From: Baffinella frigidus
Taxonomy: Eukaryota > Cryptophyceae > Cryptomonadales > Baffinellaceae
NCBI GenBank assembly: GCA_026770585.1
Contig: MU646573.1
Location: forward strand, 215,703-237,837
Length of the DNA: 22,135 nucleotides
Direction: 5' to 3'
The position numbers and the translations under genes are program-made. Each line of letters begins with the position of its first letter. The stretch's first letter is position 1. Below, piece by piece: positions 1 to 21,964 of the stretch. The notes under the pieces were generated by a model. The model did no database searches. It was not told the DNA's origin and saw only the letters and a list, made by a program, of their open reading frames with translations.

Positions 1-839
1 AGCGCGGGTGGTCTTCGGTGAAGAGGCCGCTGATGCTGCCGGTGCCCTCGCTTGAGTCTACGCCGGAGCCTCTGGGTATCGCCTAAATCATAAACCTTTG
101 ACCCTACACCCTGCACCCTTAACCCCAAACACTCAACACTAAATCATAAACCCTAAAACCTAAACCCTAAACCCTAAACCCTAAACACTAAATCCGACAC
201 CCTAAACACTAAACTGTGAACCCTAAACCTGATGAGATCTGGTCCTCCCTGCCCAAAATGCGCGCAGCTGGTACCCAACGGGGTATCATGCACGCCATGT
301 CCAATGCGCCTCACCCCTGCACGCACGCATAGAGCCCCAACGTCTCGTCCTGCCTCTCCACGTGGCGTGCAGCGGTCGTGTGTGTCAACACAACAAACCT
401 GCTTCCCCACACAGATTCCACGGCGCTGGTTGTCAACACAACAAACCTGCTTTCCCACACAGATTCCTCGGCGCCAGCGCCCTCGCACCCGCCAACGATC
501 GACGCGAGCAGCTCACCCGTCTCCACGCGCGGGGCTTCTCACCTCTCAGCGCGGGGGGCGTCAGACAGCTCGGCGGCCGGGGGGGCCTCACACGTCTCGG
601 TGCGGAGCGCGTCAGACGTCGCTGCGTCGGGGGCGTCAGACGGCGGTGCGACCGCGGGGATGGTGGGGGCGGCGAGCCCCTTCGGAAACTGGGACTACGC
701 GCTGCCGGTCGACGCTGCGGAGAGGCGCGACCTAGCTGCGAACGCGTCGCGCGTGCGCGCTGCTTCGAGTCTGTCTGGGTCGGCGGCTGGCTCCATGGTG
801 CGTTCTAGCTCTTTTTTTTTGAGCCCACGAATTTGGTGA
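1..839 (+). CDS. 3' part of a hypothetical Ser/Ala-rich protein gene, two exons seen
   Basis: Partial gene that enters from the left edge. The proposed exons are 1-75 and 463-839. The first reads in frame 3 and ends in a phase-1 donor (CTGG|GTATCG). The second starts after CCCACACAG (ending at 462), so the split codon becomes Asp, and it ends at a TGA at 837-839. An alternative end is the possible donor ATG|GTGCGT at 797/798. The second exon encodes degenerate Ser/Ala/Gly-rich repeats (RGASHLS, RGASDSS, GGASHVS, RSASDVA, SGASDGG), then a less repetitive segment with SPFGNWDYALPVDAAERRDL. I do not recognise a family. Other frames are also open here because the DNA is GC-rich, so the evidence is the phase-consistent splice and the plausible non-repetitive tail. 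No start codon is in the window. Confidence 0.4.
76..462 (+). repeat. Intron of the first gene, left part telomere-like CCCTAAA repeat
   Basis: About 90-230 is a degenerate array of CCCTAAA, CCCTACA, CACTAAA and CCCTGCA units. 230-382 is unique GC-rich sequence, and 383-478 is the tandem duplication described separately. The sense strand of the gene carries the C-rich strand. Intron status rests on the inferred GT donor at 76 and AG acceptor at 461-462. Confidence 0.45.
383..478 (+). repeat. 48-bp tandem duplication carrying a splice acceptor twice
   Basis: 383-430 and 431-478 are two copies of a 48-bp unit beginning TGTCAACACAACAAACCTGC, differing at a few positions. Each copy contains CCCACACAG|ATTCC, a good acceptor, ending at 414 and 462. 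Because 48 is a multiple of three, either acceptor keeps the downstream frame. Confidence 0.85.
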
Positions 840-1039
840 GCCCGGGAGGCTCTTTTCTGCTGCAATGTTGACGTTTGTTTGTTAAAAAACCTAGCATGTC
901 AACGTGAGAATAGAAGGTCGACCCGAGTGAGGCAGAGCGCGGGGTTGCATCCAGTGCGGATGCTGCTGGGGGTTGCCAGACGCTCTATATAACTATATAT
1001 GACTATATCTATAAAGTCATATATATTTGGTCATATGCG
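840..1039. other. Spacer without recognised gene
   Basis: No coding evidence. It contains an AT-rich stretch at about 985-1035 (ATATA and TATAT runs with GTCATATATA) that stands out from the GC-rich surroundings. Confidence 0.5.
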
Positions 1040-1044
1040 CGGCT

Positions 1045-1146
1045 TATCCCCTAAGTGGCGGACTGGCGAACATTCGCCCTAACTCGCCCTAGGCAGGTCC
1101 TAGGGCCCTACCGTAGGGCGTATGAGCCCACTGGCCACTTATGAGC
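1045..1146. mobile_element. MITE family M2, copy 1
   Basis: The left end TATCCCCTAAGTGGC is the inverted-repeat end of family M2 (consensus TA-TCCCTTAAGTGGCCA). The core holds CCTAGGCAGGTCCTAGGGCC and CCCTACCGTAGGGCGTATGA, and the right end CTGGCCACTTATG is degenerate. There is no coding capacity. Confidence 0.75.
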
Positions 1147-1275
1147 ATACTCGGTTGCCCAACGCTCTCAACGGCTTTTACCGCCCATCCACTCGGCTTT
1201 CTGGCTATTTCCATACTGCACGTTGACTGTGTACCACAACCCCGAGGTGTCAACCTCCGGGCGCTCTGCGCGGCT

Positions 1276-1379
1276 TATCCCTTAAGTGGTGGACGGGCGA
1301 ATATTCGCCCCAACTCGCCCTGGGCAGGTCCTAGGGCCCTACCGTAGGGCGTATGAGCATACTTGCCACTTAAGGGATG
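1276..1379. mobile_element. MITE family M2, copy 2
   Basis: The ends are TATCCCTTAAGTGG and CCACTTAAGGGATG, with the M2 core between. It is about 100 bp long. The left flanking dinucleotide is TA and the right is TG, a decayed TA duplication. Confidence 0.8.
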
Positions 1380-1433
1380 CCGCTAATCCACCTGGGTTTC
1401 TGACTATTTCCATACCGAACGGTGACTGATGCG

Positions 1434-1635
1434 CCACACGAGGCTATCCATGCGAACAGATTCATAAGTCAATCATTGAATTAGTGCCCAGGAAACACGC
1501 CAAAAGTCAGCAAATGATCACGTTTCCGCCCGCTTAGCGGTCGGACGTGTGTAAAGTATCAAGGCTTTCATCTGAAAATTACTACACACGTTTACAATCG
1601 ACATTTATTCTGTTCGCATAGGTAGCCTCGTGTGG
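1434..1635. mobile_element. Inverted-repeat element M8
   Basis: The terminal inverted repeats are about 27 bp with roughly two mismatches: CCACACGAGGCTATCCATGC at the left, matched by TAGCCTCGTGTGG at the right end. It is 202 bp long and non-coding. It lies inside the second unit of the tandem duplication and is absent from unit 1 near 1232, so it inserted after or during the duplication. Confidence 0.8.
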
Positions 1636-1696
1636 TGTACCGCAACCCCGAGAACTTAACCTCCGGGCTCGCCCAGGTCCTATGTACAGGGGGGCC

Positions 1697-1790
1697 TGAT
1701 GCGATCCGAAAGGAAGCATGGCCTTTCTACAGAACCAGTTCCGGTGTCCGCCTATGGTGGGAGTTAAAATAACCTAAAGGACATCGATGG
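1697..1790 (+). repeat. Dispersed repeat family D, short form
   Basis: It contains GATGCGATCCGAAAGGAAGC, then CTACAGAACCAGTTCCGG and TCCGCCTATGGTGGGAG, then ACCTAAAGGAC. The same ordered blocks recur at least ten times in the window on both strands. Confidence 0.8.
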
Positions 1791-1855
1791 AGAGCCCAGA
1801 TCTCTCTGCGGGTCCTCGCACTGCCTCATGGAGAGCTAAAAGTTCATAGTTCACA

Positions 1856-2031
1856 ACGTCTTCGCGGAGCAATAATGGCTCCAAGCCCTGGTATAAACTT
1901 TGTACCAAACATTGGACACGACCCCAAAATACCCTTAATGGACATTTAAACGACTTCACGGTCTTGTCCATGGTCTTGTCCCGTACAAAATTTGTACGGG
2001 GCTTGGAGCCATTATTGCTTCGCGAAGGCGT
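1856..2031. mobile_element. Inverted-repeat element M7
   Basis: The arms of about 30 bp are nearly perfect inverted repeats: ACGTCTTCGCGGAGCAATAA with TGGCTCCAAGCCC at the left, and GGGGCTTGGAGCCATTATTG with CTTCGCGAAGGCGT at the right. An inner GTACAAAATTTGTAC palindrome lies next to the right arm. It is 176 bp, non-coding, and no clear target duplication is seen. Confidence 0.8.
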
Positions 2032-2089
2032 CGGAATCTGTGAAAGTTGGGCGTGGCCGGTCGCTCTCAGCCCTTGCTGGCTGACGCCT

Positions 2090-2229
2090 TTATCCGGGGA
2101 AATATATTTTTCTTTCATTTGATGGCAACGAAAATTACTACACAATTCGTTCTTATTAGTAATATAAAATAATCTGTGTAGTAATTTTGATTGCCATCAA
2201 ATGAAAGAAAAATAGATTTCCCCGGATAA
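2090..2229. mobile_element. MITE family M3, copy 1
   Basis: 140 bp, almost entirely an inverted repeat, from TTATCCGGGGAAATATATTT to its complement ending CCCCGGATAA. The arms include TTTCATTTGATGGCAA and AAAATTACTAC. The flanks carry GCCT on both sides, a candidate 4-bp target duplication. A second copy is at 20279-20418. Confidence 0.9.
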
Positions 2230-2289
2230 GCCTGTCGTGTGAACGTGGCTGTTTCCTGTCATGTGTGCGTGGCTGACGCCTGGCGTGTT

Positions 2290-2372
2290 TCCGTTAGGTC
2301 CTGGAGGTTCTTTCAACTCCCACCATAGGCGGACACTGGAACTGGTTCTGAGTAGAAACTCCATGCGTGCTG
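2290..2372 (-). repeat. Dispersed repeat family D, short form, minus strand
   Basis: The complement shows CAGAACCAGTTCCAGTGTCC, GCCTATGGTGGGAGTT and GAACCTCCAGGACCTAA, the ordered blocks of family D. Confidence 0.75.
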
Positions 2373-2388
2373 TGTGCGTCGCTGACGG

Positions 2389-2484
2389 CTGTCTTGCGTG
2401 CGGGGCTGACGCTGGTTGGCTGAATCCTGTCTTGCGTGCGGGGTTGACGCTGGTTGGCTGAATCCTGTCCTGCGTGCGGGGCTG
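2389..2484 (+). repeat. 38-bp tandem repeat, about 2.5 copies
   Basis: The unit begins CTGTCTTGCGTGCGGGGCTG and continues ACGCTGGTTGGCTGAATC. Copies are at 2389-2426 and 2427-2464, with a partial copy at 2465-2484. Confidence 0.9.
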
Positions 2485-2588
2485 CAGCAAAACACGCCGC
2501 GGCAACGCATGACGCCTCGGGAGTTGGAGCTCATGACGCGCGAGACCGTGCCAACTCTGTTCCACAACGGGAAGCCCGTTGCATAAGG

Positions 2589-2694
2589 CCTATCCCTTAA
2601 GTGGCCAGTAGGCGTATACGCACAACCGTAGGGCCCTAGGACCTGCCTAGGAACTCTTGGGGGTCGAATTCGACCCTCTGGCCACTTAAGCCAT
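2589..2694. mobile_element. MITE family M2, copy 3
   Basis: The left end is TATCCCTTAAGTGGCCAGTA and the right end CTGGCCACTTAAGCCATA, a decayed complement. The core CCGTAGGGCCCTAGGACCTG is typical of M2. It is followed almost at once by an M1 element. Confidence 0.8.
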
Positions 2695-2701
2695 ACATGT
2701 T

Positions 2702-2820
2702 GGGGTACCTCGCTCATAAGAAGCAGCCCCCCCCCTAGGACCCTACAGTAGGCCTATGCCTAGGGCCCTGTGGTGGTCCTGGGGGGGGGGGGGTGCTTTT
2801 TTATGAGCGAGGTACCCCTG
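2702..2820. mobile_element. MITE family M1, copy a (damaged left tip)
   Basis: The left arm is GGGGTACCTCGCTCATAAGA and the right arm TTTATGAGCGAGGTACCCCT, with an internal CCTAGGACCCTACAGTAGGC core and G/C homopolymers. The outermost left bases are changed; the right tip abuts TA, which is also the first base pair of the next element. Confidence 0.85.
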
Positions 2821-2939
2821 TAGCTCTGCCTGAGTTTTATTCTGGCTCGTCCTTAAAACTATATAAGAGCAGAACACCAGTACAAACGGGCGGATATAAT
2901 GCCTCTAGGACGAGCCAGGACAAAACTCAGGCAGAGCTA
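2821..2939. mobile_element. Inverted-repeat element M5
   Basis: TAGCTCTGCCTGAGTTTTAT with CTGGCTCGTCC at the left is matched by CGAGCCAGGACAAAACTCAG and GCAGAGCTA at the right. The arms are about 32 bp and the total 119 bp. TA at both tips suggests a TA target duplication shared with the neighbouring M1 copy. Confidence 0.85.
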
Positions 2940-2965
2940 GGAAGCCGCCGCTCGAAGCCGGCAAC

Positions 2966-3073
2966 TCTGGGGATATTACCCCGTGTAGGATGGCCGGAGT
3001 GACTTTACACAGTCACGTCCAATAAGGAGTGTAAAGTTACTCCGGTCATCCTACACGGGGTAGTATCCCCAGA
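2966..3073. mobile_element. Inverted-repeat element M6, complete copy
   Basis: A long hairpin whose arms of about 45 bp begin TCTGGGGATATTACCCCGTG and end with the complement CCCCAGA. GCAAC flanks both sides (2961-2965 and 3074-3078), a candidate 5-bp target duplication. It is 108 bp and non-coding. Confidence 0.85.
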
Positions 3074-3118
3074 GCAACGCCGTCGGGGAAGGTGACCGTG
3101 GCGGGTATTGCGCAATAA

Positions 3119-3186
3119 TCTGGGGATACAGTCCCGTGTAGGATGGCCGGAGTGACTTAACACGAGGCTGTACATGTATCCCCAGA
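3119..3186. mobile_element. M6 derivative with one arm shortened
   Basis: It starts TCTGGGGATACAGTCCCGTG, continues like the left arm of M6 (TAGGATGGCCGGAGTGACTT), and then jumps to a right tip TGTATCCCCAGA. The second arm is mostly deleted. Confidence 0.75.
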
Positions 3187-4080
3187 AAAATGACGTCGGG
3201 GGAGATTGTGGCCACAGGCGTGTACAGGGGTTACTCGGCGTAATGAAGAATGAATACAGATGTGTTGTTACATGTGAAGGGTGGGTGGTGAATGTATCTG
3301 CAGCTGTAGGGACATATGCAGAGCAGTGACTCGTCGCTCAGGACAACGGGGTGGGGTGGTGGTCAAAGGACTTATTTGCCGACCGGAGCTCCACCTTTCT
3401 GATAGGAAGTGTGTGGGCATCTAGGCTCTAAGGGTGCACGAAGTGCCCTTAGAGCCTAGATACCCACACGCACGCAGACAGCCGAGCAGGAAAGGTCGTG
3501 GGATGACAACGAAATTGCTGGCTGCTCGATCCTGGACACTGGAACCCCCCTCGATCCTGCATCCTGGAATCTCCGCCCGGAAGTACTCCTGTATGGAACC
3601 TCGTTCCTCATCATTTTTGACCCAAAACTTTGAAAAAACAGAACTAGTTTGAAAACTGGTGCCACGCACGCTAGCCAGTTTCAGGGGTTCGCAACAAAAC
3701 ACATGGCTGTTATGTTAGAGTACAGGAGAAGACACTCTCTACCCTCCCACCATACATTAGTGAAGTAACGACGTACATTGGTGAGGTAACGACGTAACCG
3801 TGAAGAGGCATTCCTAGTTGGCTATTTCACGTCTACGTATGACCACTGAGAGGACCTCTCAGGTGGTCCACGTTCATTATGAGACTGGTTGATGGGTACA
3901 TCCCCAATGCAATCCCCATCAAAGGCTATCCGTCGCCTCCAACAATGCGTCGTTACTAGGAAGCCACGAACGAGAGTCGCCCCGCCAGCCAGGAGCGAAA
4001 TGTTATTGTCGAAGATCTTTTCGATTTTATTTACAAAAATTTCACACGCTGTGAGTCGTGAAGGTAAGTGCACACGTGAT
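3187..4080. other. Spacer without recognised gene
   Basis: No reading frame here looks coding. It holds the 3410-3471 hairpin and two direct copies of a short motif (AGTGAAGTAACGACGTACAT and GGTGAGGTAACGACGTAACC near 3760-3800). Confidence 0.5.
3410..3471. repeat. Near-perfect 62-bp hairpin
   Basis: GTGTGGGCATCTAGGCTCTA with AGGGTGCAC faces GTGCCCTTAGAGCCTAGATA with CCCACACGC across a tiny loop. The stem is about 29 bp with a couple of mismatches. It may be a remnant of a MITE or a functional fold. Confidence 0.8.
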
Positions 4081-4186
4081 TATCCTATAAGTGGCCATGC
4101 CCACAAATTTGAGGGCCTAGAGGTCCTAGGCAGGTCCTAGGGCCCTACCGTAGAACGTATGAGCCTACTGGGCACTTACGGGATAG
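4081..4186. mobile_element. MITE family M2, copy 4
   Basis: The left end is TATCCTATAAGTGGCCA and the right end GGGCACTTACGGGATA, with the M2 core (CCTAGGCAGGTCCTAGGGCC) between. It lies 35 bp past the stop codon of the CDC14-like gene. Confidence 0.8.
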
Positions 4187-4221
4187 CGAGCGACAGCCCC
4201 AAGGCCCTCTACTGGCGCCTC

Positions 4222-6292
4222 CTACACGGCGCCGAACCCCCACAAAGCCCTCGGGGAGGCCCTCCCCTTGGGGGAGCAGGGGGTCCTAGGAGACCGCCCC
4301 GCGCGGGGAGAGCACCGCTGCGCCAGCCGCGAAAAGCCGGAGCACTGCGGGACTTGCGAGGACGAAAGCGCGGGGCGCGCGTGGCGCGCGTGGCGCGGGG
4401 GGGGCGGGGGGGGCGGGGGGGGCTCGAGGGGGGATCCGTCGCGGAGCGCGAGGGTGCGGATGCGTGCGGCGATGGCGGCGCTGCCGGCATCCGCGGCCCG
4501 GACGCTCTGTGCAAGATCGGCGCTGACGCGCGCCATCCTATCGCGGGCGTTGCGCCGCGCGAGCGCGTCAGCGACCTGCGTTGCGTTGTTCCTGGCCAGC
4601 GCCCGCGCGGCATGCTCATCCCCGGGGCGCGCAAACGCGCGGAAAACCGAGCCCAGCCCGCCGCCTCCCGGGGCCGAGGCGCGCTCGCACGCTAAGAGGA
4701 AGTGCTGCTGCTGCCCGATGACCGAGCCGGGCCGCGCGATGCGAAGCCTGGTTTCGGGTGTGGGGGTTAGGGTTTGAGGTTTGGGGTTGGTGGTTTGGGT
4801 TTTTTTGGGGGGGGGGGGGGTTTGGGGTCTGGGGTTTGGGGGTTGGGGTTTGGAGTTTGGGGTGTGGGGGTTGGGGTGTGGGGTTTAGGGTTGGGGGTCG
4901 GGTTTAAGGTTTAGTGTTTGGTGTTTAGTGTTTGGGTTTTGGTTTTTTGGGGTGTAGGGTGTAGGGTGTAGGGTGTAGGATTTCAGGGTGTAGGGTGCAG
5001 GGTGTAGGGTGTAGGATTTCAGGGTGGGGGTGTCACCACGCAATGGTCTCCCGCGCACTCCAGCCCTTCATGACCATGATCCAAAGCGCGATGAGCGTCC
5101 CGGTGCGCCCGAGGCCCGCCTTGCAATGCACCGCGATGGCCCCGAACGGGTTCCGGTCGCAGATCGCGAAAAACGCCTGTTTGCGGGGTTAGGGTTTAGA
5201 GCTTTGGGCTGTGGGGTTCAGAAGTTGGGGGTTAGGGTTTAGGGTCAGGGTTTAGGTGTTGGGGTTTAAGGTTGAGGGTTTGGGGTTCAGGGTTTAGGGT
5301 TTAGGGTTAAGGGTTGAGGGTTTAGCCTTGAGAGTTGAGGGTTTAGGGCTCAGGTCTGAGGGTTTAGGGTTCAGGTTTTAGGGGTTCGGGTTTAAGGTGT
5401 AGGGTTTAGGGTTTAGGGATTAGGGTTTAGGGATGAGGTTTTATGGTTTGGGGGTTGCCTTGACAACAGCGGCGCTCGGAACCGTGCAGTCCTCGAACTC
5501 GAGGTCGTACAGCGCGATCCCCGCGTCGCTGAACTCCCGAGGGTCGTACAGGCTCGCCTCGTTGAGCCTCACCACGGCGGTCACATCGGTGCCGCGGCGA
5601 GCCGAGCGTTGGAACGCTGCGAGGAAGTGCGCGGGGGGGTGCGCCCAGGTGGGGCGCGCGCGCGCGCGCGCGGCGACGGGCCCCTGGAACGCGATGAAGC
5701 GTGGGCACACGGTGGTGTACCCGTCGCGCGTCTGCTCCCTGTAGATGGCGCGGTCGAAGCTGTCGATGTTGAGCCAGCCCTCGTGGGCTGCGCGATTCAG
5801 GCCCGCGAGGCAGTCGCGGATCGGCAGCTCAAAGTCGCTGGGCGCGTCCGTCGCATCTCGGAAGTGTGCCCACGGCGACGGAACGATCCTCTCGAACGGC
5901 GCAGCCGCCTTCTCTGGGGACCAGCCCTCGTGAAGGACGAGGTAGGCCCCCAGCAGGTACGCGGCGTTTGTCCGGAATTCGCTGTTGAGAGCCTCGGCGT
6001 AGAAGACTACTTCGCGCCCGCTGATGCGGGGGTCGCACAGCACGGCGCGAATCTTGCGGCAGAAGGTGACTGTCCGGTCCAGGTCCACAGGCCCAAAGTC
6101 GGAGCAGTACGGGACATACTTGGTGTGCTCAAAGGTCGAGCAGAAGAACTTGTCAGGATGCTCGTCGATCGCTCTGCGCGTCGCGGCCTCGTCCGCATGG
6201 AACGTAAAGGCAAATTTGCCCGGGGTCACGCTGTAGATCGCTCCAGCCTCCCACGCCACGGTATGCAGTCGGTCTGCCTGCTCGGGCGGCAT
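4222..6292 (-). CDS. CDC14: CDC14-type dual-specificity protein phosphatase, 3 exons
   Basis: Cys-based phosphatase of the CDC14 family, which removes phosphate from CDK-site Ser-Pro in cell-cycle proteins (cilia-linked in some protists). Exons read down the minus strand: 6292-5459, 5176-5037, 4747-4222; 499 residues. Seen: N-terminal domain with [11 protein letters not shown] (residues 62-72) and [17 protein letters not shown] (108-124); catalytic-domain start TAVVRLNE (238-245); acid loop FEDCTVPS with Asp268; P-loop [11 protein letters not shown] (Cys296, Arg302); [14 protein letters not shown] (329-342), a CDC14 hallmark. Frame and family identity agree across both junctions. The first donor is GC (AAG|GCAACC), the second GT; both acceptors are CAG|G. 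The start chosen is the first in-frame ATG before DRLHTV; the frame stays open upstream, so an earlier exon is possible. After residue 345 the tail is low complexity with a run of nine Pro (G runs at 4399-4425). A (GC)n run at 5657 encodes RARARAR. All catalytic residues are present. Confidence 0.93.
4748..5036 (-). repeat. CDC14 intron 2: degenerate telomere-like repeat
   Basis: 289 bp, GT-AG, phase 2 (TG|G = Trp325). The plus strand holds TTTGGGG, GGTGTAGGGTGTAGG and TTTAGTG units and a 14-base G run at about 4807-4820. The sense strand is again the C-rich one. Confidence 0.88.
5177..5458 (-). repeat. CDC14 intron 1: degenerate telomere-like repeat, GC-AG ends
   Basis: 282 bp. The plus strand reads TTTAGGG, TTTAAGG, TTCAGGG and TTGAGGG units, so the gene's sense strand is CCCTAAA-like. 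The donor GCAACC gives a gap-free match to CDC14 proteins (SAAVVK joined to AFFAIC); GT alternatives nearby would shift the frame or delete conserved residues. The acceptor is CAAACAG|G. Confidence 0.85.
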
Positions 6293-6354
6293 TGCTTGCT
6301 CGCGTTTGCAAGGGGGGAGGAATAGGAGAGATTCCTCGAACTCGAGGTCGTACA
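5490..6354 (-). repeat. 22-bp identical repeat at both ends of CDC14 exon 1
   Basis: The same 22 bp (containing CCTCGAACTCGAGGTCGTAC on the plus strand) lie at 5490-5511 and 6333-6354. The first encodes YDLEFED around the acid loop. The second lies upstream of the chosen ATG and would read VYDLEFEE in the same open frame. Confidence 0.9.
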
Positions 6355-6595
6355 CAGTGAGCGGGACGCGGAGGCCGATTGATGAGGAACACACCGTGCG
6401 GTGTGTACGCGCGGAATTGACGAGTGTGGGGTGGAGAAACTTCCGTGGAGATTCTTCGGTTCCTCTTAATTTTTTTTGGTTTGTGGAAGAGGCACGCTAA
6501 ATTTAGCACGTTTTTGCTAAATTTAGGGGTTGAGGCGAACCAAAAGTTGACAATTGACTCTTGCCAGATTTTTTTATTCTCTGGACGGGCCCGCC
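6293..6595. other. Upstream region of the CDC14 gene
   Basis: The CDC14 frame remains open leftwards on the minus strand for some distance, so part may be 5' UTR or an unseen exon. It becomes AT-richer at 6460-6590, with GCTAAATTTAGC (6497-6508) and a related TGCTAAATTTAGG. No promoter can be assigned from sequence alone. Confidence 0.4.
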
Positions 6596-6820
6596 TCGGT
6601 AGAGCGCTTGCCTGAAGGACCTATCTCCATAAGCTCCATAAAACTTGTCGGATTTCAGTCAGATTTCACGAGAAATATTTTCAGAAATTCAGAACTTTTG
6701 TACCAGGACGTGACATGAAACCGGTCCATCTAAACGATTCTGGTACAAACTCTCTGAAATTCTCAAAACATTTCTCGTTGAAATCCGACCCGACAAGTTT
6801 TCCCGCAAGCGCTCTACCGA
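6596..6820. mobile_element. Large inverted-repeat element M9
   Basis: The tips TCGGTAGAGCGCTTGC (6596-6611) and GCAAGCGCTCTACCGA (6805-6820) are exact complements. Inner arms also pair: AAAACTTGTCGGATTTCA, CACGAGAAAT and TTTTGTACCAG at the left match the complement at the right. The left arm has about 28 unpaired bases after the tip. No coding sequence is present. Confidence 0.85.
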
Positions 6821-6834
6821 TTTACAACAGAGCC

Positions 6835-6975
6835 ACCCTGTATCCCCTCTTCACGAGCCTCTGCACTGGAGAGCTAAACGCGATCCGAAAGCAAAAATGC
6901 TTTCTCTGCAGTCCTTGCTACGGAAGGGCGTGGCGTTGGGCTACGGTGGGAGCATTCAAAACCTTCAGGACCTAA
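6835..6975 (+). repeat. Family D repeat, long form copy 1
   Basis: Blocks in order: CCCTCTTCACGAGCCTCTGC, ACTGGAGAGCTAAACGCGAT, CCGAAAGCAAAAATGCTTTC, GGCTACGGTGGGAGC, CCTTCAGGACCTAAA. Diverged, but the same order as the copies at 7303 and 8087. Confidence 0.7.
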
Positions 6976-7141
6976 ATTCATTTAGAGGTGTTTCCCCACT
7001 CCACACTTTTGGGTATAGGGGATGGAATACTTGGTTTTTCAAGGGCTACAACTTTGAACCGAGGAGCAAAAAGTGTAGCATGGGGGATAAACATGGTCTA
7101 GGCTAAATCGACCGCTTAGTGAAGCACCCTCAAATTTGATT

Positions 7142-7290
7142 TGCGAGCGCGTTTCTCTTTGGGATAACTCAAACGCCTGATGAGAAAACCCTTTAGCCGG
7201 TTCTGCCGCGTGATGTGATCCGAAAGGAAGCATGGTCTTTCTACAGAACAAGTTCCGGTGTCCGCCTATGTTGGGAGCTCGAAGAAATTT
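7142..7290 (+). repeat. Family D repeat, long form copy 2
   Basis: It begins GCGAGCGCGTTTC, continues AACTCAAACGCCTGATGAG and CCCTTTAGCCGGTTCTG, then GATGTGATCCGAAAGGAAGC and CCGCCTATGTTGGGAGCTC. Confidence 0.7.
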
Positions 7291-7302
7291 GGTTTGGCAT
7301 GT

Positions 7303-7747: not shown

Positions 7748-8086
7748 TGAGCCGCTCGAGCGAGGACTGAAAACATTTTTAAAAGATTTTAACAACTTTA
7801 ATCCGCATCCTGAAGGAAAAGGACCTTCAAGACTTTACAGTCTGACGCTTAGATTGGCCTTCAACTTTGCTGACTTCCACACATTGAGGGGAATCTTGAC
7901 ACATCCACCGTTGTTTGCTTTCATCAATGGTATCTGACTGATCTCACCTCACCCTCACACACAATCCCTTTTACTTTTTGAAATCATGTTTCCTCCTGAC
8001 AGCTGGGGTATCCGTGGTTGGAGCTCCTATGCTCTTGACCATTGGATACCATATGGGCCTTCTGCCGACTTGAAATCTGGTGTGTG
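7748..8086. other. Spacer between D repeats, no gene seen
   Basis: No coding signal, strong hairpin or tandem repeat is seen here. Confidence 0.45.
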
Positions 8087-9529: not shown

Positions 9530-9625
9530 TGATGTGATCCGAAAGAAAGCATGGCCTTTCTACAGAACAAGTTCCGGTGTCCGCCTATGTTGGGAGCTCG
9601 AAGAACCTAAAGGACCTAAAGGATG
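9530..9625 (+). repeat. Family D repeat, short form
   Basis: TTGATGTGATCCGAAAGAAA, then CTACAGAACAAGTTCCGGTG, TCCGCCTATGTTGGGAGCTC, and a 3' end of two ACCTAAAGG units. Confidence 0.85.
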
Positions 9626-9687
9626 AAAGGTTTTTGGGAGGACGTGCTTTCACTTGTCCGATATTGGGAAGGGCCCTTTCAAAAGGG

Positions 9688-9780
9688 CTTGGGGTTTAGG
9701 GTTTAGGGTTTGTGTTTTAGGATTTACAGTTTAAGGTTCAAAGTTTGACGGTTTAGGGTTTAGGGTTCGGAGTTTAGGGG
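9688..9780. repeat. Interstitial telomere-like tract
   Basis: Degenerate TTTAGGG units (GGGTTTAGGGTTTAGGGTTT, TTTAAGG, TTTGACGG, TTCGGAG). It is not next to an exon I recognise. Confidence 0.85.
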
Positions 9781-9879
9781 GTATCCGGGGATAACCCCCA
9801 AAAGTATTGCCGCTCTCATATGCCTACTTCAGCCTGCGTTATGCCCCTCTAGAGCGCGAAAATGGCTAACTTGAGGGGG

Positions 9880-9921
9880 GGGGTGATTAATCACCCCTGT
9901 TGGCTGGTCACTTAAGGGATA
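9880..9921. mobile_element. Truncated right end of an M2 element
   Basis: GATTAATCACCCCTGTTGGC followed by TGGTCACTTAAGGGATA matches the right half of the M2 copy ending at 21327 (GATTATTCACCCGTTGGTCA, CTTGAGGGATA). Confidence 0.65.
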
Positions 9922-9946
9922 GAATCCGCTGTGCATCTCTGTGCTT

Positions 9947-10000
9947 CTGGGGATAAATCCCCCCTAGGAGTAGTCGGAGTGACTATACACAAGTCACGTC
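9947..10000. mobile_element. Truncated M6 element
   Basis: TCTGGGGATAAATCCCCCCT, then GGAGTGACTATACAC and AGTCACGTCCA, match the left arm and centre of the complete M6 copy at 2966. The right arm is missing. Confidence 0.6.
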
Positions 10001-10103
10001 CACTTTGGAGCGCAGACTGCTCGCGCGGGAAACCTGTCACGCACCCAGTGAATCAATCATCCCTTTGGCCGGTTTCTGACGCGATCCTTCTGCACTGGGG
10101 GGG

Positions 10104-10197
10104 CTGATGTGATCCGAGAAAAAGCATGGCCTTTCGCAGGATAAGTTCCGGTGCCCGCCTATGTTGGGAGCTCGAAGAACCTAAAGGACCTACAGGA
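10104..10197 (+). repeat. Family D repeat, short form
   Basis: CTGATGTGATCCGAGAAAAA, then CCGCCTATGTTGGGAGCTCG and AACCTAAAGGACCTACAGG. The CTGCACTGG block just upstream suggests an internally deleted long form. Confidence 0.8.
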
Positions 10198-10324
10198 TCT
10201 ACAGACACGCATCCTCTGTCCGCGTGCCCCCCCTTCTAGCCAGCGCCATGCTACATAATTTCTGAGTCCTCGTTCCTCTAGCGAGGCAGCTGGCGACTTC
10301 CCGGCACCAGGCGACCCGCCATGC

Positions 10325-10405
10325 CCCTTTAGGTCCTTTAGGTTCTTCGAGCTGCCAACATAGGCGGACACCGGAACCTGTTCTGTAGAAAGGCCGTGCC
10401 CCAGA
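10325..10405 (-). repeat. Family D repeat, short form, minus strand
   Basis: The complement reads GGCCTTTCTACAGAACAGGT, TCCGCCTATGTTGGCAGC, GAACCTAAAGGACCTAAAGG. Confidence 0.85.
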
Positions 10406-10484
10406 TTCCAAGGTCGACGAGCCGCCCGACTCGAACCCGGCAGCCACTGATGCTTGGCATTGCCCGCTTTGGCGCAGAAGTTCC

Positions 10485-10588
10485 TATCCCTTAAGTGGCC
10501 AGTAGGCTCATACGCCCTACCGTAGGGCCCTAGGACCGGCCTAGGACCTCAGGCCCCCAAATTTGGAGGCCTGGTAACTTAAGGGATA
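10485..10588. mobile_element. MITE family M2, copy 5 (well preserved)
   Basis: TATCCCTTAAGTGGCCAGTA at the left and CCTGGTAACTTAAGGGATA at the right, with the core GCCCTACCGTAGGGCCCTAG and a CCAAATTTGG palindrome. Confidence 0.88.
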
Positions 10589-10685
10589 GGAGCAGCGAGC
10601 CGCTTCACCATGTTGGAAATACTGTTGCAACCTGACAGTGAACTAGTGGAGAGTTGGCCACTTATGAATTCGCTAGCTTGGCAGA

Positions 10686-10713
10686 ACCCTAAACCCCTAC
10701 TCCCTAAACCCTA
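10686..10713. repeat. Short CCCTAAA tract
   Basis: AACCCTAAACCCCTACTCCC and CCCTAAACT directly precede the hydrolase-like pseudogene segment, with the C-rich strand on its sense strand. Confidence 0.7.
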
Positions 10714-10716
10714 AAC

Positions 10717-11050
10717 TTGCCCGCCCACACGGGGTGCCCAGAAATCTCGAGCAGGAGATGTGCAAGAGCTTCCGTGGAATGGTACCGGACACGCAGGGCG
10801 CCAGTCTGCGCTACAGGGGTACCTCGCTCATAAGAAACGCCCACCTCCCTAGGACCACCATAGGGCCCTAGGCATAGGTCTACTGTAGGGTCCTAGGGGG
10901 GGTTGGTGTTGGTTTTTTATGAGCGAGGTACCCCTGTACGGGTCACGCAGGGCGCCAGCCTGCGTTACGACTGTAACTTCCCAACCCCCCACGGCCTTGC
11001 ACCCACCGAAGTGACAGCTTGCAACGGTTTGACCAGGTCTGAGCTCGCGG
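10717..11050 (+). pseudogene. Broken copy of the exon-1 end of the ABHD10-like gene
   Basis: 10717-10813 and 10938-11050 resemble 13885-14080 of the hydrolase gene. Shared runs include CCGCCCACA, GTGGAATGGT, CGACTGTAACTTCCCAACCC and CACCGAAGTGACNGCTTGCA. The copy still encodes RYDCNFPTPHGLAPTEVTAC, like the intact gene. It is cut by an M1 MITE, and the roughly 27 bp next to the insertion (CACGCAGGGCGCCAG plus flanks) occur on both sides. A D repeat follows where the parent has intron sequence. No downstream hydrolase exons are seen, so this is a gene fragment, not a working paralogue. Confidence 0.8.
10814..10936. mobile_element. MITE family M1, copy b
   Basis: CAGGGGTACCTCGCTCATAA at the left and TTATGAGCGAGGTACCCCTG at the right, with TA on both sides (10812-10813 and 10937-10938). 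It interrupts the pseudogene. Confidence 0.92.
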
Positions 11051-11052
11051 GA

Positions 11053-11141
11053 TCTCTTTAGGTCCTTTAGGTTCTTCGAGCTCCCAACATAGGCGGACAC
11101 CGGAACTGGTTCTGCAGAAAGACCATGCTTCCTTTTTAGTT
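11053..11141 (-). repeat. Family D repeat, short form, minus strand, inserted in the pseudogene context
   Basis: The complement reads AAAAAGGAAGCATGGTCTTT, then GAACCAGTTCCGGTGTCCGC, GTTGGGAGCTCGAAGAACC, TAAAGGACCTAAAG. The parent gene reads GGGATCTCTCAGTTCTG without it, so the insertion lies between GGGATCTCT and AGTTCTG. Confidence 0.85.
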
Positions 11142-11472
11142 CTGTCGCAAACGGGTCTACACAGACCCCCCCCCAACACCTGCCCATCAGTGGAATGCTC
11201 CAACACCCGCCTTGCGACTCAGATGCTGCTTTACACACTTTATGTACACACACCCCACCGCTCCAAGTCGAAGCGACACTCCTCTCTCACAAGGATCATT
11301 CATGCAAAAAGCCTTCACGTCTGAGCCCCTTAAGGAGGTCACGCGGGGGCATCTTTGCCCCTCTAAAAGAAATTTAAAAGAAATTTCAGGGGAGTCACGT
11401 CCGGAAGGAGCTCACGGGTGAGCTCCTTTTCAGGGCTGGAAAGGTGCTCACCCGTGAAGACTTGAGGTGATA
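11142..11472. other. Spacer with a perfect 24-bp hairpin
   Basis: 11405-11428 is AAGGAGCTCAC-GG-GTGAGCTCCTT, an 11-bp perfect stem with a 2-base loop, about 45 bp past the stop codon of the minus-strand gene. 11140-11165 holds TCGCAAACGGGTCTACACA, which in the parent gene (14094-14116) lies in the opposite orientation. No gene is seen. Confidence 0.6.
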
Positions 11473-13431
11473 TCATGCATCAGCCAGCGTGGTGAGCAGC
11501 GCGTGCTCCGACAGCCACAGCTCCTCTGCCTTGGTCAGCCCCCGCGCGCTCTCCCACATCACCTCCTCCAGCAAGCCTGCCGCCGCCGGCACGTCTCAGT
11601 TGCTTAGTTTAGGGGTTTAGGGGTGAAAGTTTAGTTTAGGGGTGAAGGTTTGGGGATCAGGGTGTGGAATTTGGGGATTGGGGTTGAGGTTTGAGGTGTG
11701 AGTGTTTAGGGTCTGAGGTTTAGGGTTCGGGGGTTGGGGAGTAGGGGGTAGGGTTTAGGGTTTAGAAGTTCGGGTTTAGGGTTCAGGGTTTTACGGTTGA
11801 GGGTTTGATGTTCAGGGTTTGGATTCAGAGTTGAGAGTTTTGGGTTTTGGGTTTTGGGTTTAGAGTTTTGAGGTTTCAGGGTTTGGGGTTTAGAGTTTAG
11901 AGTTTAGAGTTTAGAGTTTAAGGTTAAGGGTTGAGGGTTTAGGGTTTAGGGTTTAGGGTTTAGGTTTTAGGGTTTAGAGTTTAGATTTTGGGGGTTGGGG
12001 TTTAGGGTCTGGGGACTAGGGTCTTTTTCTACGGTCTAGAGTCTAGGGTTTAGGGTTTAAGGTTCAGGGTTTAGTGTTTGTGGTTGAGGGTTTAGGGTTT
12101 AGGGTTGATCAAGGTTTTAGGGTGTTGGGTTTAGGGTTCAGTGTTTAGGGTTCAGAATTTCGGGTTTGGGGTTTGGGGTTCAGGGTTCAGGGTTCAGGGT
12201 TTAGGTTTTAGGGTTTAGTGTTCAGGATTCAGGGTTTAGGGTTCAGGGATCAAGGTTGAGGATTCAGGGGTTAGGTTTTAGGGTTAGGGTTTAGGGTTTT
12301 CGGATTAGCGGTTGGGATTTAGTGTTTAGTGTTTACGACTCAGGCTTCAGTGTTCAGGGTTCACGGTTTAGGGTTTATGGTTTATGGTTCATGGTTTAAG
12401 GTTTAGGGTTTAGGGTTCATGGTTTAAGGTTCAGGGTTCAGAGTTCAGGGTTTAGGGTGTAGGGTTTAGGATTCAGGTTCTGGTGCATAGACGACACGCG
12501 CAGGGTCGCCCTCCTCAGAGGGCACACACCTTGCTCAGACAGGAACATCTTCCTTCCACACGCAGCACTCGGCGTCACGGACCGGTGCTCGAAGTTCGAC
12601 TCGAGGTCGCGTGGCCCCACACACACTTCATCCTCGCCCCTCCTCATCGTGATCCCCATCTCCGCCATCCTCTCGTCAAGCCGACTTCGCGCCGCTTGCC
12701 CTCCCACCTAGGGTTTAGGGTTTAGGGTTTAGGGTTTAGGGTTTAGGGTTTAGGGTTTAGGGGTTAGGGTTTAGGGTTTAGGGTTTAGGGTTCAGGGTTC
12801 AGGGTTCAGGATCTCCCTCCCACCTACCCCAGTGCGTGGCTCGTCAGAAGAAACAGCACGCCACCTTCTACCCGCTACATGCCCGGAAGATGCCGGGGGT
12901 TCTAGCCACGCGGGCGCTGGGCTAGAAGACCCCCCCCACGCAGCCTCCCCCCACCCCTACCGATCCTTCTTTTCTGATTCCCCGCGTTCAACTACACGAC
13001 CCCGCACTCGCTCCATCCGCATCTATAGAAGAAATCTAGCGACCTTGCCTCAGCCAGCAGGACTGGTTTGAAATCCCAGCATGGAAGCGCTGCTCGCCTC
13101 AGAGCCCTGCCACCTTCAGGGCGCTGTCATGTCGGGGGGTCCACACCCTTCAGGGCGCTGCCATGTTGGGGGGTCCACACCCTTCTCCTGATCCTGAGTT
13201 GACTCCTCCACAACCTACTTTCACAGTGGAAAAGCGCGCAGCGTTGAAAGTGGCCAGTGATCTAGGGGAGGATTGCTCCTTACACAGTCCCTGCTGGGGA
13301 GCCGAGCGCTTTGGGATGGCTGTTGCAAGCTGAGAAGTTGGAGAGCTCAGCTCACCTCGCCGCGGTCGTAGGCTGCCATCAATGCCCGCACGCTGTGGGC
13401 GTCTGTGAGCGCCTGCGACGAGCACATCTGG
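11473..13431 (-). CDS. Unrecognised protein, last three exons; start probably near 13612
   Basis: The proposed exons, down the minus strand, are 13431-13356, 12707-12530 and 11594-11473. Junction evidence: GAG|GTGAGC to CCCTAG|GTGGGA in phase 0, and CAAG|GTGTGT to ACTGAG|ACGTGC in phase 1 (Asp). It ends in TGA at 11475-11473. The protein reads QMCSSQALTDAHSVRALMAA ... YDRGE, then VGGQAARSRLDERMAEMGIT ... CVGPRDLESNFEHRSVTPSA ... MFLSEQ, then DVPAAAGLLEEVMWESARGL ... LSEHALLTTLADA. It is soluble-looking, with Ala/Leu/Glu-rich likely helices and no membrane segment. An ATG at 13612 opens MAPMPNIKNPFALLDWK, which could be the first exon, but the link to 13431 is unclear. I recognise no family. 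It is divergent to the hydrolase gene starting at 13721. Confidence 0.55.
11595..12529 (-). repeat. 935-bp intron of almost pure degenerate telomere repeat
   Basis: The plus strand is TTTAGGG with many variants (TTCAGGG, TTTGGGG, TTGAGGG, TTTAGAG, TTTATGG). The sense strand of the host gene is CCCTAAA. The donor is AAG|GTGTGT and the acceptor ACTGAG|AC. It is the longest such tract in the window. Confidence 0.75.
12699..12826 (-). repeat. Telomere-repeat tract between 12-bp direct repeats
   Basis: CCCTCCCACCTA occurs at 12699-12710 and again at 12815-12826, flanking 104 bp of mostly perfect GGGTTTA repeat (12711-12810). On the sense (minus) strand each copy reads TAG|GTGGGAGGG, and the downstream one is the proposed exon start. 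This looks like an insertion with target duplication at a splice acceptor. Confidence 0.85.
12827..13355. other. Remainder of the minus-strand gene's intron
   Basis: No exon needed. It contains the 34-bp tandem duplication and a tRNA T-arm-like GGTTTGAAATCCC at 13065-13077 without a complete tRNA. A frame open through about 12827-12990 on the minus strand is G-rich and phase-incompatible. Confidence 0.45.
13113..13185 (+). repeat. 34-bp tandem duplication
   Basis: The unit CCTTCAGGGCGCTGTCATGT with CGGGGGGTCCACAC occurs at 13113-13146 and, with two changes, at 13147-13180, followed by a partial third start. Confidence 0.9.
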
Positions 13432-13612
13432 CTGCACGAAAGGACAACCACGACACACACCGACGCACAGACCCTCCACGCACGCATCGCAGCCTCTTGG
13501 CACACGTTGAGACCCTGATCCTCTCCCCCCTGTCCAGCCGAGACAGGAATTCGACCTAACTTTTCCAATCCAACAACGCAAACGGATTCTTGATATTGGG
13601 CATTGGAGCCAT

Positions 13613-13720
13613 AAGCCTCAGATTTGAAGGAAACTGCGTACCCGAGTTTTAAAAAGCAAAATATCGATGGTGAGCTCCCAATATGTTGCAGCATTTGTTG
13701 CAGGGACAAGAGAATCCCAA
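13613..13720. promoter_or_regulatory. Candidate shared divergent 5' region
   Basis: 108 bp separate the possible ATG of the minus-strand gene (13612) from the first ATG of the hydrolase gene (13721). No TATA box or other motif stands out. The inference rests only on gene orientation and spacing. Confidence 0.3.
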
Positions 13721-16700
13721 ATGATGCGCCCCTCCCAATTGGTGGGCGGCGCCCTGGCGCTTGCCCTTTCTCTGTTTTGCTTCACCCCGACGGGGGCGTT
13801 CCTCCCCCCGTCGCCCGCGGCCCTGTTCCACGCCCGCCCGCAGAGCGCCCGGGCCCTCCGCCCCTCCGTCCTCACCCTGCGCTCGCAAACCCGCCCGCCC
13901 ACATCGGTGGTGCCCGGAAACATCGAGCAGCCGGAGATTCGCAACAGCGTCAGTGGAATGGTGCCGGTCACGGAGGGCGCCTGCCTGCGCTACGACTGTA
14001 ACTTCCCAACCCCCCACGGCCTGGCACCCACCGAAGTGACCGCTTGCATCGGTTTGACCAGGTCTTAGTTTGCGGGATCTCTCAGTTCTGCGGAGTGTGT
14101 AGACCCGTTTGCGACGCTCTGACCAGACGGACCTTGCGCTGGGGCGTTGTGCGTCTGTAGACCGGTCTGACCTCGTTCCGGGGCGGTGGGTGTGCGCAGA
14201 CCTTCCGGGGAGCTCTCCCACGATCCTGTTCCTCCCGGCGTTGAACACGACGCGCCATGGAACCAAGAGCGCGGCGCTCAAGACATGGTGCCGACGGAAC
14301 GGGCGCAGCTACATGGTCGCCGACTTCTTCGGTCTGTTCATCCCTCAACCTGGAATCCCCTCTCGGCGCCTTGTTCCCCGGCACATATTTCGATGCGCCA
14401 ATTTCGATGCAGGACGCACGACTGAGAGGCTGTAGCACCGCCCACCAGCCATCCCAAGTGGCTCAAATAGTGCCCTGGAATGTCTTCAATTTTACCTTGG
14501 ATCGGGGTTGGATCGGATGTCGATCCAAGGTAAATCAAAAATGCCCCAGAGCACTATTTGAGTCACCTCCAAGGACCAGTGGGCAGGCGGGGCGGGCGGG
14601 GCGCCACCAGCCACCAGAAGTGAACCAAACCGAACGATCGCAAAAGTTGATTTCCTCTGCAGACTAAAGGTAAATCGAACAAGCCCCGATGAGCCACATC
14701 CAAGGGCCAGTAGGAGACTGCACTGTCGCGCTCGCCACCCGCACACACTCCTTCTTCTTCTTCTTTTTATGACCCTCATAAAACACCTCGAGATGTCCCT
14801 CAGCCTTTTGACACATGATGAACTTACTACTACTCCAACACGACTCGCCCAGGCCGCATTGAAGCACGAATCAGAGGCGGGCTCTAGCACCGAGACGGCA
14901 CTACCGCGCTCGCCACAGGCACACACATGAAACCTAACTCTGTGGATTTGGCAGGCACGGGGCAGAGCGACGGAGACTACAAGGATGCGACTATCACGCG
15001 GTGCGGAATCCCGAACCCTAGACCCTGGACCCTAAACTCTAAAACCTAAAAATGAGACCCTACGCCCTGCACCCTACACCCTGCACCCTACACCCTACAC
15101 CCTACACCCTACACCCTAAACCCTAAACCCTAAACCCTAAACCATGAACCCTAAATCCTCAACCCTGATCCCTCAACCCTGAACCCTAAACCCTGAACCC
15201 TGAACCCTAAATCCTGAACCCTGAACCCTAAATCCTGAACCCTGATCCCTAAACCCTCAATCCTCAACCCTACACCCTCAACCTTAAACCCTCAACCCCA
15301 AACCCTCAAAGCGAAACACTAAACCCTCAACCCTGCACCCTCAACCCTCAACCCCAAACCCTAAACCCCACACCCTAGGTGGGCGGAGGACACGGCAGCT
15401 GTGATCGACTGGCTTGCCAAGGAGCACGGGCAGGACAAGGTACACTCTCTCCAGCTCTGCAGCCACATGTTGGGGTTGCCAAACCAAAATCCCTCACCTG
15501 TAGAGCGAGAACGAGCCCGGGCTCACCAAATTTGCTCGGAGGGCCTGCCCACCTTGCAGGACAAGGTTGGCAGGCCCTCCGCCCCTCCAGCCTCAACCTC
15601 CGGCACGTGCGTGATGATGCACTACACTCTCCAGCTCTGCCGATTCTATCGCTGCGTTGGACGATGCACTGTCACCGTTGGTAAGTGTCTTCCTCGTCGG
15701 AGCTCGAGCACTCGCCGAACACGACGAAATTTCTCAGACCACTTGTGGGAGCCAGCCACGAGCAGTGGGCGGCTGCCAGCGGGGCGGGACACGCCACTCC
15801 CCTCTGGCAGTTGCCCGGTAAGCAACGCCCTAGAGCTGAAAGACTTCTCTCCTTGATGGTGGCAGGTGATCATCGTAGGAGCGGGAGTGGGCGGGTGGGT
15901 CATGCTCCACACGGCGCAGGTCCCCGCCCCCCCCACCCCCCCACCCCCAGGCTCCCCGTCTCGCTACCCACGTTGGCCAGCTGAAGGATTTTTCTCGTTT
16001 TTATTTAGACGGGTTCTGGGATCGATTTCCCTTCCCGCCTTGAGTGAGGATATGGCGCTCCAAAATGAATGAATTCACGGCCGTGAATTCGCCCGAAAAT
16101 GATTGAATCACCGACGATTCACCCTGGATCGGCGCGTGCGACAGATGCGGGCAAACGCAGTGCTGGGTCTCGTGGGCTTCCATGGGAACCAATTCACACG
16201 GAAGCCGCGCGTGCGTGAGGATACCGACGATTCACACGGAATCACGACACCGACGATTCACCCGGGATCGGCGGTGGCCATTTTAGTTGCGATCAGAATC
16301 CACTCGTCGTTTCTCCCAGCCGACGATTCACCCGGGATCGGCGCGGGCGGCAGATGCGCCCGGACGCAGTGCTGGGCCTCGTGGGCGTCGCGGCGGACCC
16401 AGACTTCACGGAGACGCTCATCCGCCCGGCCCTCTCGCCCGAGACCCTCGCGGAGATCGAGGCTAAAGGCATCGCGGACTTCCAGTGGTCCCGCCCGTCA
16501 CCCTACACCCTACATCCTAAACACTGCACCCTAAACCCACACCCTTAAACCTACACCCTAAACAAGGAACCCCAAACCCCAAACCCCAAACCCTAAACCC
16601 TAGACCCTAGACCCCATACCCTTAACCATAAGCCCCACACCCCAAACCCTAAACCCTCCTGTTCTGGAGTTGTCAAGCGTTGAGTGCACCGCCCTGAGGT

Positions 16701-17211
16701 TTTGTGCCAGATTCCAGGAAGGTGTCGGCAAAAGTCAATTTATCCTGAAGGCAGTTGTTTTCAAAAGTCAATACCGTACCAGGGTACGGTATTAAGACAG
16801 TCACCACCCTGTTCTAATCTGGCGTGATAGCGATCGAGGGGGATTCGCCTCTGAGCAACCGCTGGGGATGGGCAAACCCCAAACCCCAACCCCAAAGCCC
16901 GCACCCCGCACCCCGCACCCCAACCCCCAACCCCCAACCCCCAACCCCCAACCCCCAACCCCCAACCCCCAACCCCCAACCCCCAACCCCCAACCCCCAA
17001 CCCCCAACCCCCAACCCCCAACCCCCACCCCCCACCCCCCAAACCGCACACCCTCAACAGGGGCGGATGCAACTACGCGATGACGAAGAAGATGCTGGCA
17101 GACGGCAAGGAGATGATGGTGCTGAACAAGGGGCCTGCCTCGATCGAGATCTTCTGCCCCGTGCGCCTCATCCAGGTGCAGCCCCCGTACAGGTTATGGA
17201 TGGTGAGGTGT

Positions 17212-19717: not shown

Positions 19718-19744
19718 ATTCATCGACATCATTCGCCCTGTGTA

Positions 19745-21962: not shown

Positions 21963-21964
21963 TA

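Follow-up and report, generated by a model that had tools for sequence, protein, structure and literature searches.

As far as is known, new introns arise en masse mainly from transposon-like introners, with examples in Micromonas and Aureococcus. In Daphnia, introns are reportedly gained at breaks, with short direct repeats. Introner elements have also been described in dinoflagellates, including Amoebophrya, in the excerpts available of two reports (PMC7789003, PMC11453091). Among human interstitial telomeric sequences, 31% lie in introns and none in exons, a distribution compatible with random insertion; the accessible part of that study views these sequences as inserted during break repair and names the splicing effect of intronic telomeric repeats as worth testing (PMC7215372). 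The plant telo boxes are short TTTAGGG-type motifs that, according to the portion of the source at hand, are enriched in the 5' regions of genes (PMC3022908). No paper among the matches listed from the open-licence literature, a body that leaves most subscription papers outside its scope, describes telomere repeats as strand-biased introns.

The whole stretch of DNA analysed here, 22,135 bases long and hereafter the window, contains degenerate tracts of such a repeat, detected by scanning for the CCCTAAA dimer (a match of 11/14 or better) and with Tandem Repeats Finder. The dimer scan marked 806 bases of the plus strand as C-rich and 1578 as G-rich; when the sequence without tracts was mononucleotide-shuffled ten times, the means were 33 and 28. 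Nine introns called in the window cover 4343 of its 22,135 bases and hold 2400 of the 2542 tract bases, and eight of the ten tracts lie largely within introns (p = 0.0001 against random placement). Two intergenic tracts, G-rich on the plus strand at 9683-9783 and C-rich at 10681-10719, emerged from the dimer scan and were absent from the list in an earlier note on this DNA. The dimer scan, Tandem Repeats Finder and splice coordinates bear out its placement of seven further tracts in introns or predicted introns; the one given as 16488-17060 is intronic but was started nine bases early, the splice coordinate being 16497. Its claim that CCCTAAA always lies on the sense strand, with genes on both strands, also stands: the sense strand is C-rich in 7/7 tract introns (some of them predicted) and 4/4 genes, two on each strand. 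The window observation, strand included, is confirmed and real, and the sampled genes extend it to sequence outside the window.

Gapless protein alignments span three of these tract-intron junctions, and GT/GC-AG boundaries restore a conserved reading frame in the introns of a Cdc14-type gene, an ABHD10-like gene and the kinesin gene L043. The first, a Cdc14-type dual-specificity phosphatase gene (4222-6292, minus strand; exons 5459-6292, 5037-5176 and 4222-4747), encodes a protein matching PDB 1ohc (E 4.2e-54) and Pfam PF14671 and PF00782. Its alignment with 1ohc runs without gaps over the junction AAVVK/AFFAICD of intron 1 (5177-5458, minus strand, GC-AG) and over that of intron 2 (4748-5036, minus strand, GT-AG), and both introns are tract nearly end to end, C-rich in sense. 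The third junction belongs to the ABHD10-like alpha/beta hydrolase gene (14900-17175, plus strand; five exons seen, both ends uncertain), where alignments with 8trf and 6ny9 are gapless over TITR/WAED and intron 1 (15001-15378, plus strand) is nearly all tract, with a GT donor and a CCCTAG acceptor. Intron 4 of this gene (16497-17060, plus strand) restores one frame within the aligned region, where the alignment has small gaps close by, and is made of a C-rich tract at 16498-16660, an unrelated insert and a CAACCCC array up to 17058. Intron 2 (15440-15865, plus strand), a tract-free comparison, and intron 3 (15920-16353, plus strand) are without tract; by eye, intron 3 contains a decayed copy of the start of the following exon.

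In two other genes the introns are predicted. That of gene 1 (76-462, plus strand), placed by frame only in a low-complexity protein, comprises a C-rich tract at 81-233, a stretch of other sequence and, at 383-474, a 48-bp tandem repeat with two CACACAG acceptors. Gene 3, whose introns are placed by frame and phase only, specifies a small protein with a signal-peptide-like start, for which a Pfam search gave nothing above the cut-off (best E 0.025). Its predicted intron 1 (12708-13355, minus strand; frame only) has a tract limited to the acceptor side, up to about 12814, the final ~107 nt being near-perfect CCCTAAA with a CCCTAG acceptor, while predicted intron 2 (11595-12529, minus strand), where both sides are in phase 1 and a single frame is restored, holds an 873-nt tract at 11607-12479, C-rich in sense.

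Outside the window, we sampled stretches from 15 kinesin loci and one myosin locus, which represent two gene families. The sense strands of these 16 genes carry 72 C-rich vs 4 G-rich tracts (8063 vs 288 nt), a count in which the tracts of the tandem exon-tract arrays C123 and C506 are not independent; the ratio becomes 91:7 at a looser threshold and 54:2 at a stricter one. All 14 tract-bearing genes have a C-rich majority (sign p 0.00012). The four G-rich tracts inside genes are those of L046, L049, L054 and L061, two of which match the telomere repeat weakly (mean match 0.55 and 0.63). The sense-strand bias outside the window, which the earlier note set as its test, is seen in this two-family sample of tracts inside genes, and the note's interpretation is supported in part.

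The two orientations differ strongly in splice signals. Over 2390 nt of window tracts, read as they are and then flipped, AG rises from 24 to 248 and GT from 7 to 348, or about ten and fifty times the counts of the C-rich strand, while G-quadruplex motifs go from 0 to 31 and TT(T)AGG from 0 to 157. Stop codons occur in all frames and both orientations in 5/5 tract introns tested. The repeat had been proposed to supply a branchpoint and a CCCTAG acceptor; of the seven window introns, two have CCCTAG at the 3' end, two have AAAC(C)AG, one has CTCAACAG, and the ends of the other two lie outside the tract proper. What holds of this proposal, the asymmetry, is better put as an absence of decoys than as a supply of signals. 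That only one orientation would be spliceable is a hypothesis that fits these counts, against which stand the four G-rich tracts inside genes. Selection against AG inside introns (window p 0.0012) was considered and rejected, since AG-making variants are just as depleted in tracts whose gene context is unknown (p 0.64), which makes the depletion a property of the repeat and no sign of selection.

We consider it probable that insertions with the C-rich strand in sense persist by clean splicing and that those with the G-rich strand in sense are mostly lost. The tracts, several homology-supported boundaries, the sampled strand bias and the signal asymmetry are observed. Degenerate TTTAGGG/CCCTAAA DNA occupies many thousands of internal sites in the genome; according to this explanation, it would persist within genes almost only C-rich in sense, forming all or part of a spliceosomal intron. 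Because that strand presents no UUAGGG, no G-quadruplex and almost no donor or acceptor dinucleotide, the spliceosome would see a single donor and a single acceptor, at the tract edges. In a reversed tract, nearly every unit would offer a GT, a GGG run and an acceptor-like TTTAG, and such insertions would mostly disappear. Because both orientations bring stop codons, an insertion into an exon would survive only if spliced out. Many tracts may have arrived along with their intron by break repair, sometimes duplicating their flanks. This joint arrival, like splicing itself, symmetric insertion and the selective removal of G-rich copies, is what we infer.

A broader proposal is more tentative, and we give it somewhat less than an even chance: telomere-type DNA would be a mass source of introns, an introner without a transposon, whose copies are pasted into exons by break repair and are instantly spliceable when C-rich in sense. 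Several kinesin introns with frame-restoring junctions are mostly or wholly repeat, namely intron 2 of L043 (132 nt) and those of L048 (235 nt), L049 (149 nt) and L050 (42 nt); spliced in silico, L043 aligns with kinesin 3h4s along 350 residues (E 8e-71). Flanking direct duplications exceed the 99% control level at 14 of 68 merged tracts and at 0/7 window introns. The L048 tract has the 10-bp direct repeat GGCACGAGCC at both junctions. Junction repeats measure 5, 5, 4, 3, 2, 2 and 2 bases at seven other kinesin junctions, 5, 4, 4, 2, 2, 1 and 1 in the seven window tract introns, and 4 in each of the two tract-free hydrolase introns; lengths of 1-5 bases, that is all but L048, are what the splice consensus alone would give. 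The spreading of telomere-type repeat as ready-made introns, raised in the earlier note, is suggested by the repeat-only introns and by the flanking duplications at some tracts.

Tracts could also have invaded introns that already existed, where only the C-rich-sense orientation would leave splicing undisturbed. We find this somewhat unlikely, even though the tract makes up only part of the introns at 12708-13355 and 76-462, tract-free introns are present within the same gene, junction repeats fall mostly inside the splice consensus and no intron is dated by the present data. Several introns are repeat from one edge to the other, one of them of only 42 nt, and the 10-bp repeat at the L048 junctions likewise speaks against invasion. 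Kinesin paralogues moreover differ at the P-loop, in what we take to be its location within the kinesin profile: the intron of L043 splits a Gly codon after base 2 and that of L047 after base 1 (by eye), and the kinesins C131 and C2 match this part as a single exon.

Orientation might instead have been fixed at insertion rather than by later selection, for example if C-rich telomeric RNA or cDNA entered in the sense of transcription, or if break repair was coupled to the transcribed strand. The most intact tracts, where selection had the least time, are equally biased (19 of the 20 most intact unique tracts are C-rich), as such a mechanism would have it. None has been seen, however, G-rich tracts are present in genes, and if arrays are homogenised, intactness says little about age; we therefore doubt this scenario.

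The unit found most often in the repeat is the plant-type TTTAGGG, letter for letter. The 382 Mb genome (1364 contigs) holds 53,120 exact 21-base matches to (CCCTAAA)3, of which 27,288 are on one strand and 25,832 on the other, and 27 to the reversed control. The tracts fetched lie inside contigs and resemble, as telomere-type repeat at internal sites, interstitial telomeric sequences. The heptamer could be the unit of a minisatellite or introner that merely resembles the telomere repeat, and none of the nine contig ends examined carries a terminal array that is both clean and of the polarity expected; given the exact unit and the number of exact matches, we judge this quite improbable.

The non-tract sequence of the kinesin and myosin stretches has a C-G skew of 0.02, or 0.015 when Pfam-matched exons are masked (unmatched exons remaining in it), and with the two strands so nearly balanced outside the tracts, the bias is one of the repeat itself. 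Chance, or the strand composition of this genome's introns in general, is already disfavoured and highly implausible as its cause: the exon-masked non-tract sequence has 23 C runs of at least 8 and 9 such G runs, but the skew there is slight and the C-rich lean holds in every tract-bearing gene outside the window and in 4/4 inside. A general tolerance of (AG)n runs in these introns (23 to 2) was rejected, as 20 of the 23 come from one stretch, L056.

The internal structure of the tracts and other candidate identities were also considered. Of 28 pairs of window tracts, 24 align better forward than unit-reversed, by a modest margin, and nearly all pairs, intergenic included, score above unit shuffles, which shows local homogeneity only. 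A shared polar element, proposed from the clustering of CCCT[AG]CA at the 5' end of window introns (rotation p 0.00075), was discarded, the clustering being absent from 37 kinesin and myosin tracts of at least 80 nt (38 units, p 0.55). No terminal inverted repeats were seen by eye at the tract edges of window introns, and the inverted repeats of the window (25 of 36 pairs listed) are MITE-like elements separate from the tracts, with a terminus that has no match among viral contigs. The sequence (CCCTAAA)3CCC matches 17 viral contigs, and the best 40 alignments of these to the window fall within the repeat; the viral contigs L003 (in its first 6.5 kb) and L008 have a phage-like appearance. The dinoflagellate spliced-leader signal, searched with what we take to be its motif, did not exceed chance, Rfam gave nothing at gathering score and ARAGORN (bacterial code) returned no tRNA.

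If true, the proposed origin would provide a second source of new introns besides introners and a natural experiment on the sequences that the spliceosome accepts. It may show how chromosome-end DNA becomes introns, and it bears on the question of whether intronic telomeric repeats affect splicing in humans, as posed in the available part of PMC7215372. The present tracts share with introners, as far as the accessible descriptions go, the occurrence of repeated DNA in many introns within one genome; they differ by their telomere-type unit, by their lengths (tens of bases for the shortest, more than a thousand for the longest) and in that neither terminal inverted repeats nor a consensus longer than the heptamer has been seen. 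The junction direct repeat of the L048 intron is Daphnia-like, whereas the junction repeats elsewhere are no longer than the splice consensus gives. Tandem exon-edge copies next to introns occur in several kinesin genes here and in the system of PMC3087553, judging from its accessible part, with the difference that some copies here bracket telomere-type tract. Plant telo boxes likewise place TTTAGGG-type motifs within genes, but as short motifs in the portion of PMC3022908 at hand, and the introns here are made of arrays. Vertebrate interstitial telomeric sequences, as presented in the available text of PMC7215372, are also internal telomere-type repeats, some of them intronic; in contrast to these, the tracts described here have a strong strand bias in the sampled genes and can form whole introns.

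Repeat finding and a dimer scan reproduced the positions reported by the earlier note for the degenerate CCCTAAA/TTTAGGG tracts, with a signal far above that of shuffled sequence; the dimer scan also lists two small intergenic tracts of opposite orientations, one each (9683-9783 and 10681-10719). Gene models rebuilt from reading frame and homology comprise a Cdc14-type phosphatase gene on the minus strand (4222-6292; PDB 1ohc, E 4.2e-54; Pfam DSPn and DSPc), an alpha/beta hydrolase gene on the plus strand (14900-17175; near 8trf, E 4.4e-17, and 6ny9, E 1.5e-16), and a minus-strand gene at ~11.5-13.5 kb, read from its frame, for a small protein whose start resembles a signal peptide and in which a Pfam search found nothing above cut-off. 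The 6ny9 protein is the mycophenolic acid acyl-glucuronide esterase, presumably ABHD10. The window's first gene is a low-complexity edge, where a 48-bp tandem repeat (383-474) doubles the putative acceptor of its intron (76-462).

Frame and homology together suggest that the tracts inside these genes lie in introns. With the tract removed, alignment is gapless across both Cdc14 tract introns (5177-5458 and 4748-5036; 1ohc) and hydrolase intron 1 (15001-15378; 8trf/6ny9), and at hydrolase intron 4 (16497-17060) a single frame is restored within the aligned region, with small gaps close by. The two predicted introns of the small-protein gene (11595-12529 and 12708-13355) are phase-consistent. 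Every predicted window intron ends in AG and starts with GT, except Cdc14 intron 1, which has a GC donor; retention of any of the five tract introns tested would bring stops in all three frames, in either orientation. The window also carries a 29-C run at its end (22107-22135) and dense MITE-like inverted repeats (for instance 2702-2818, 10812-10938, 19743-19863, 21011-21135 and 21963-22083), one family of which starts near TACAGGGGTACCTCGCTCATAAGAAA and by eye resembles termini in two other stretches of the genome (L018 and L034).

The C-rich strand is sense in all seven predicted window introns, as the earlier note claimed, and the bias holds beyond the window in a sample of kinesin and myosin genes from the same genome (382,457,362 bases, 1364 contigs), which contains 27,288 + 25,832 exact (CCCTAAA)3 matches vs 14 + 13 for a backwards-pattern control. 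Stranded exon matches on its contigs numbered 45 for kinesin and 4 for myosin. The stretches sampled, from 15 loci for kinesin and one for myosin, were picked by match coordinates before their sequence was seen; kinesin matches on contigs C289, C197, C834, C657, C391 and C632 and the second match on C82 lie outside the sample. The stretches mostly lie between matched exons, some outer matches (C249, C739, C50) being under the family cut-off; two (L062 and L063) extend beyond matched exons, and L062 contains the sole tract of the C62 gene, which lies downstream of the final matched exon. The sense strand of these 62,996 readable bases holds 72 C-rich tracts (8063 nt), one found in two overlapping stretches being entered once, vs 4 G-rich tracts (288 nt); the ratio is 91:7 at a looser threshold and 54:2 at a stricter one. 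Tracts of the same gene, as in the tandem arrays on C123 and C506, are not independent, so the gene count is safer: 14 of the 16 sampled genes bear tracts (the exceptions are on C112 and C82), each of the 14 with a C-rich majority (sign p 0.00012), and with the window included the figure is 18 of 18 tract-bearing genes. Among the 20 most intact unique tracts, 19 are C-rich and one is G-rich.

Outside the tracts, C-G skew in the sampled stretches is 0.02 with exons included and 0.015 with Pfam-matched exons masked, a figure that still contains exons beyond the Pfam matches. Non-tract runs of at least 8 (23 C vs 9 G) point the same way as the tract bias, more weakly. (AG)n runs also lean to the sense strand (23 vs 5), but this was rejected as a general rule, since 20 separate sense-orientation (AG)n-type runs come from a single 4-kb kinesin stretch (L056). 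A common internal polarity of the tracts, suggested in the window, disappeared in the larger sample. AG-avoiding variants were rejected as an intron-specific feature because tracts of unknown gene context show the same, making them a property of the repeat. The organism's telomere repeat was not found at the readable contig ends, so the label 'telomere-type' is owed to the motif. In a phage-like viral contig (L003), CCCTAAACCC-type repeats stand directly ahead of a number of small genes' start codons, oriented as the gene is (for example 2580-2607, 3019-3053 and 5584-5642).

Over 2390 nt, AG occurs 24 times and GT 7 times on the sense strand of the window tracts, which lacks both quadruplex motifs and TTAGG; turned round, the same tracts would have 248 AG, 348 GT, 31 quadruplex motifs and 157 TTAGG, so that a G-rich-sense tract has sites resembling donors and acceptors in almost every unit. 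It would also carry GGG runs and UUAGGG, the repeat used in studies of human hnRNP A1 (PMC7192615). A C-rich-sense tract would be a desert of splice signals, with functional sites at its edges. Which feature counts (donor- and acceptor-like sites, GGG runs or UUAGGG), we can so far only infer.

The tracts may have expanded inside older introns. Direct duplications scoring higher than 99% of mismatched pairs bracket none of the seven window introns, and junction repeats of the scored tract introns are 1-5 bases, within what the AG/GT consensus would give, apart from a 10-base direct repeat in one kinesin intron (L048); at each of the two hydrolase introns free of tract the junction repeat is 4 bases. 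For part of the set, insertion with duplication, as in break repair, is the reading that the L048 repeat and the following features together favour. Repeat occupies all or almost all of both Cdc14 introns, of hydrolase intron 1 and of kinesin introns in L043 (intron 2, 132 nt), L048 (235 nt), L049 (149 nt) and L050 (42 nt). Duplications bracket 14 of 68 merged tracts (61 from kinesin stretches and the 7 window introns, each with at least 60 bases of flank, myosin set aside), with fewer than one expected; kinesin genes account for all 14, of which several belong to the same arrays and one or more are low-complexity matches. Intron presence and phase also vary by eye among kinesin paralogues in the P-loop region. 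Decayed tandem exon-like copies occur beside or inside introns, with or without tracts, in eight stretches (L046, L049, L050, L051, L052, L054, L055, L057), and by eye one lies in hydrolase intron 3 (16140-16180).

Among the matches listed, we found no description of strand-biased introns of telomere repeat in open-licence literature. Human interstitial telomeric repeats, in one study, are 31% intronic and never exonic, a distribution judged compatible with random insertion, and their effect on splicing is posed there as a question (PMC7215372); in yeast, another study reports that orientation affects replication and stability of interstitial repeats, using an intron-split reporter (PMC6410037). 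The duplicated flanks here, by eye largely exon-like, resemble the mirages of amphioxus (PMC3087553). Among known systems introners come closest in effect, but no terminal inverted repeats were seen by eye at the tract edges in the window introns. The pattern is strong, and it may represent a new form of known intron gain and of interstitial telomeric sequence.
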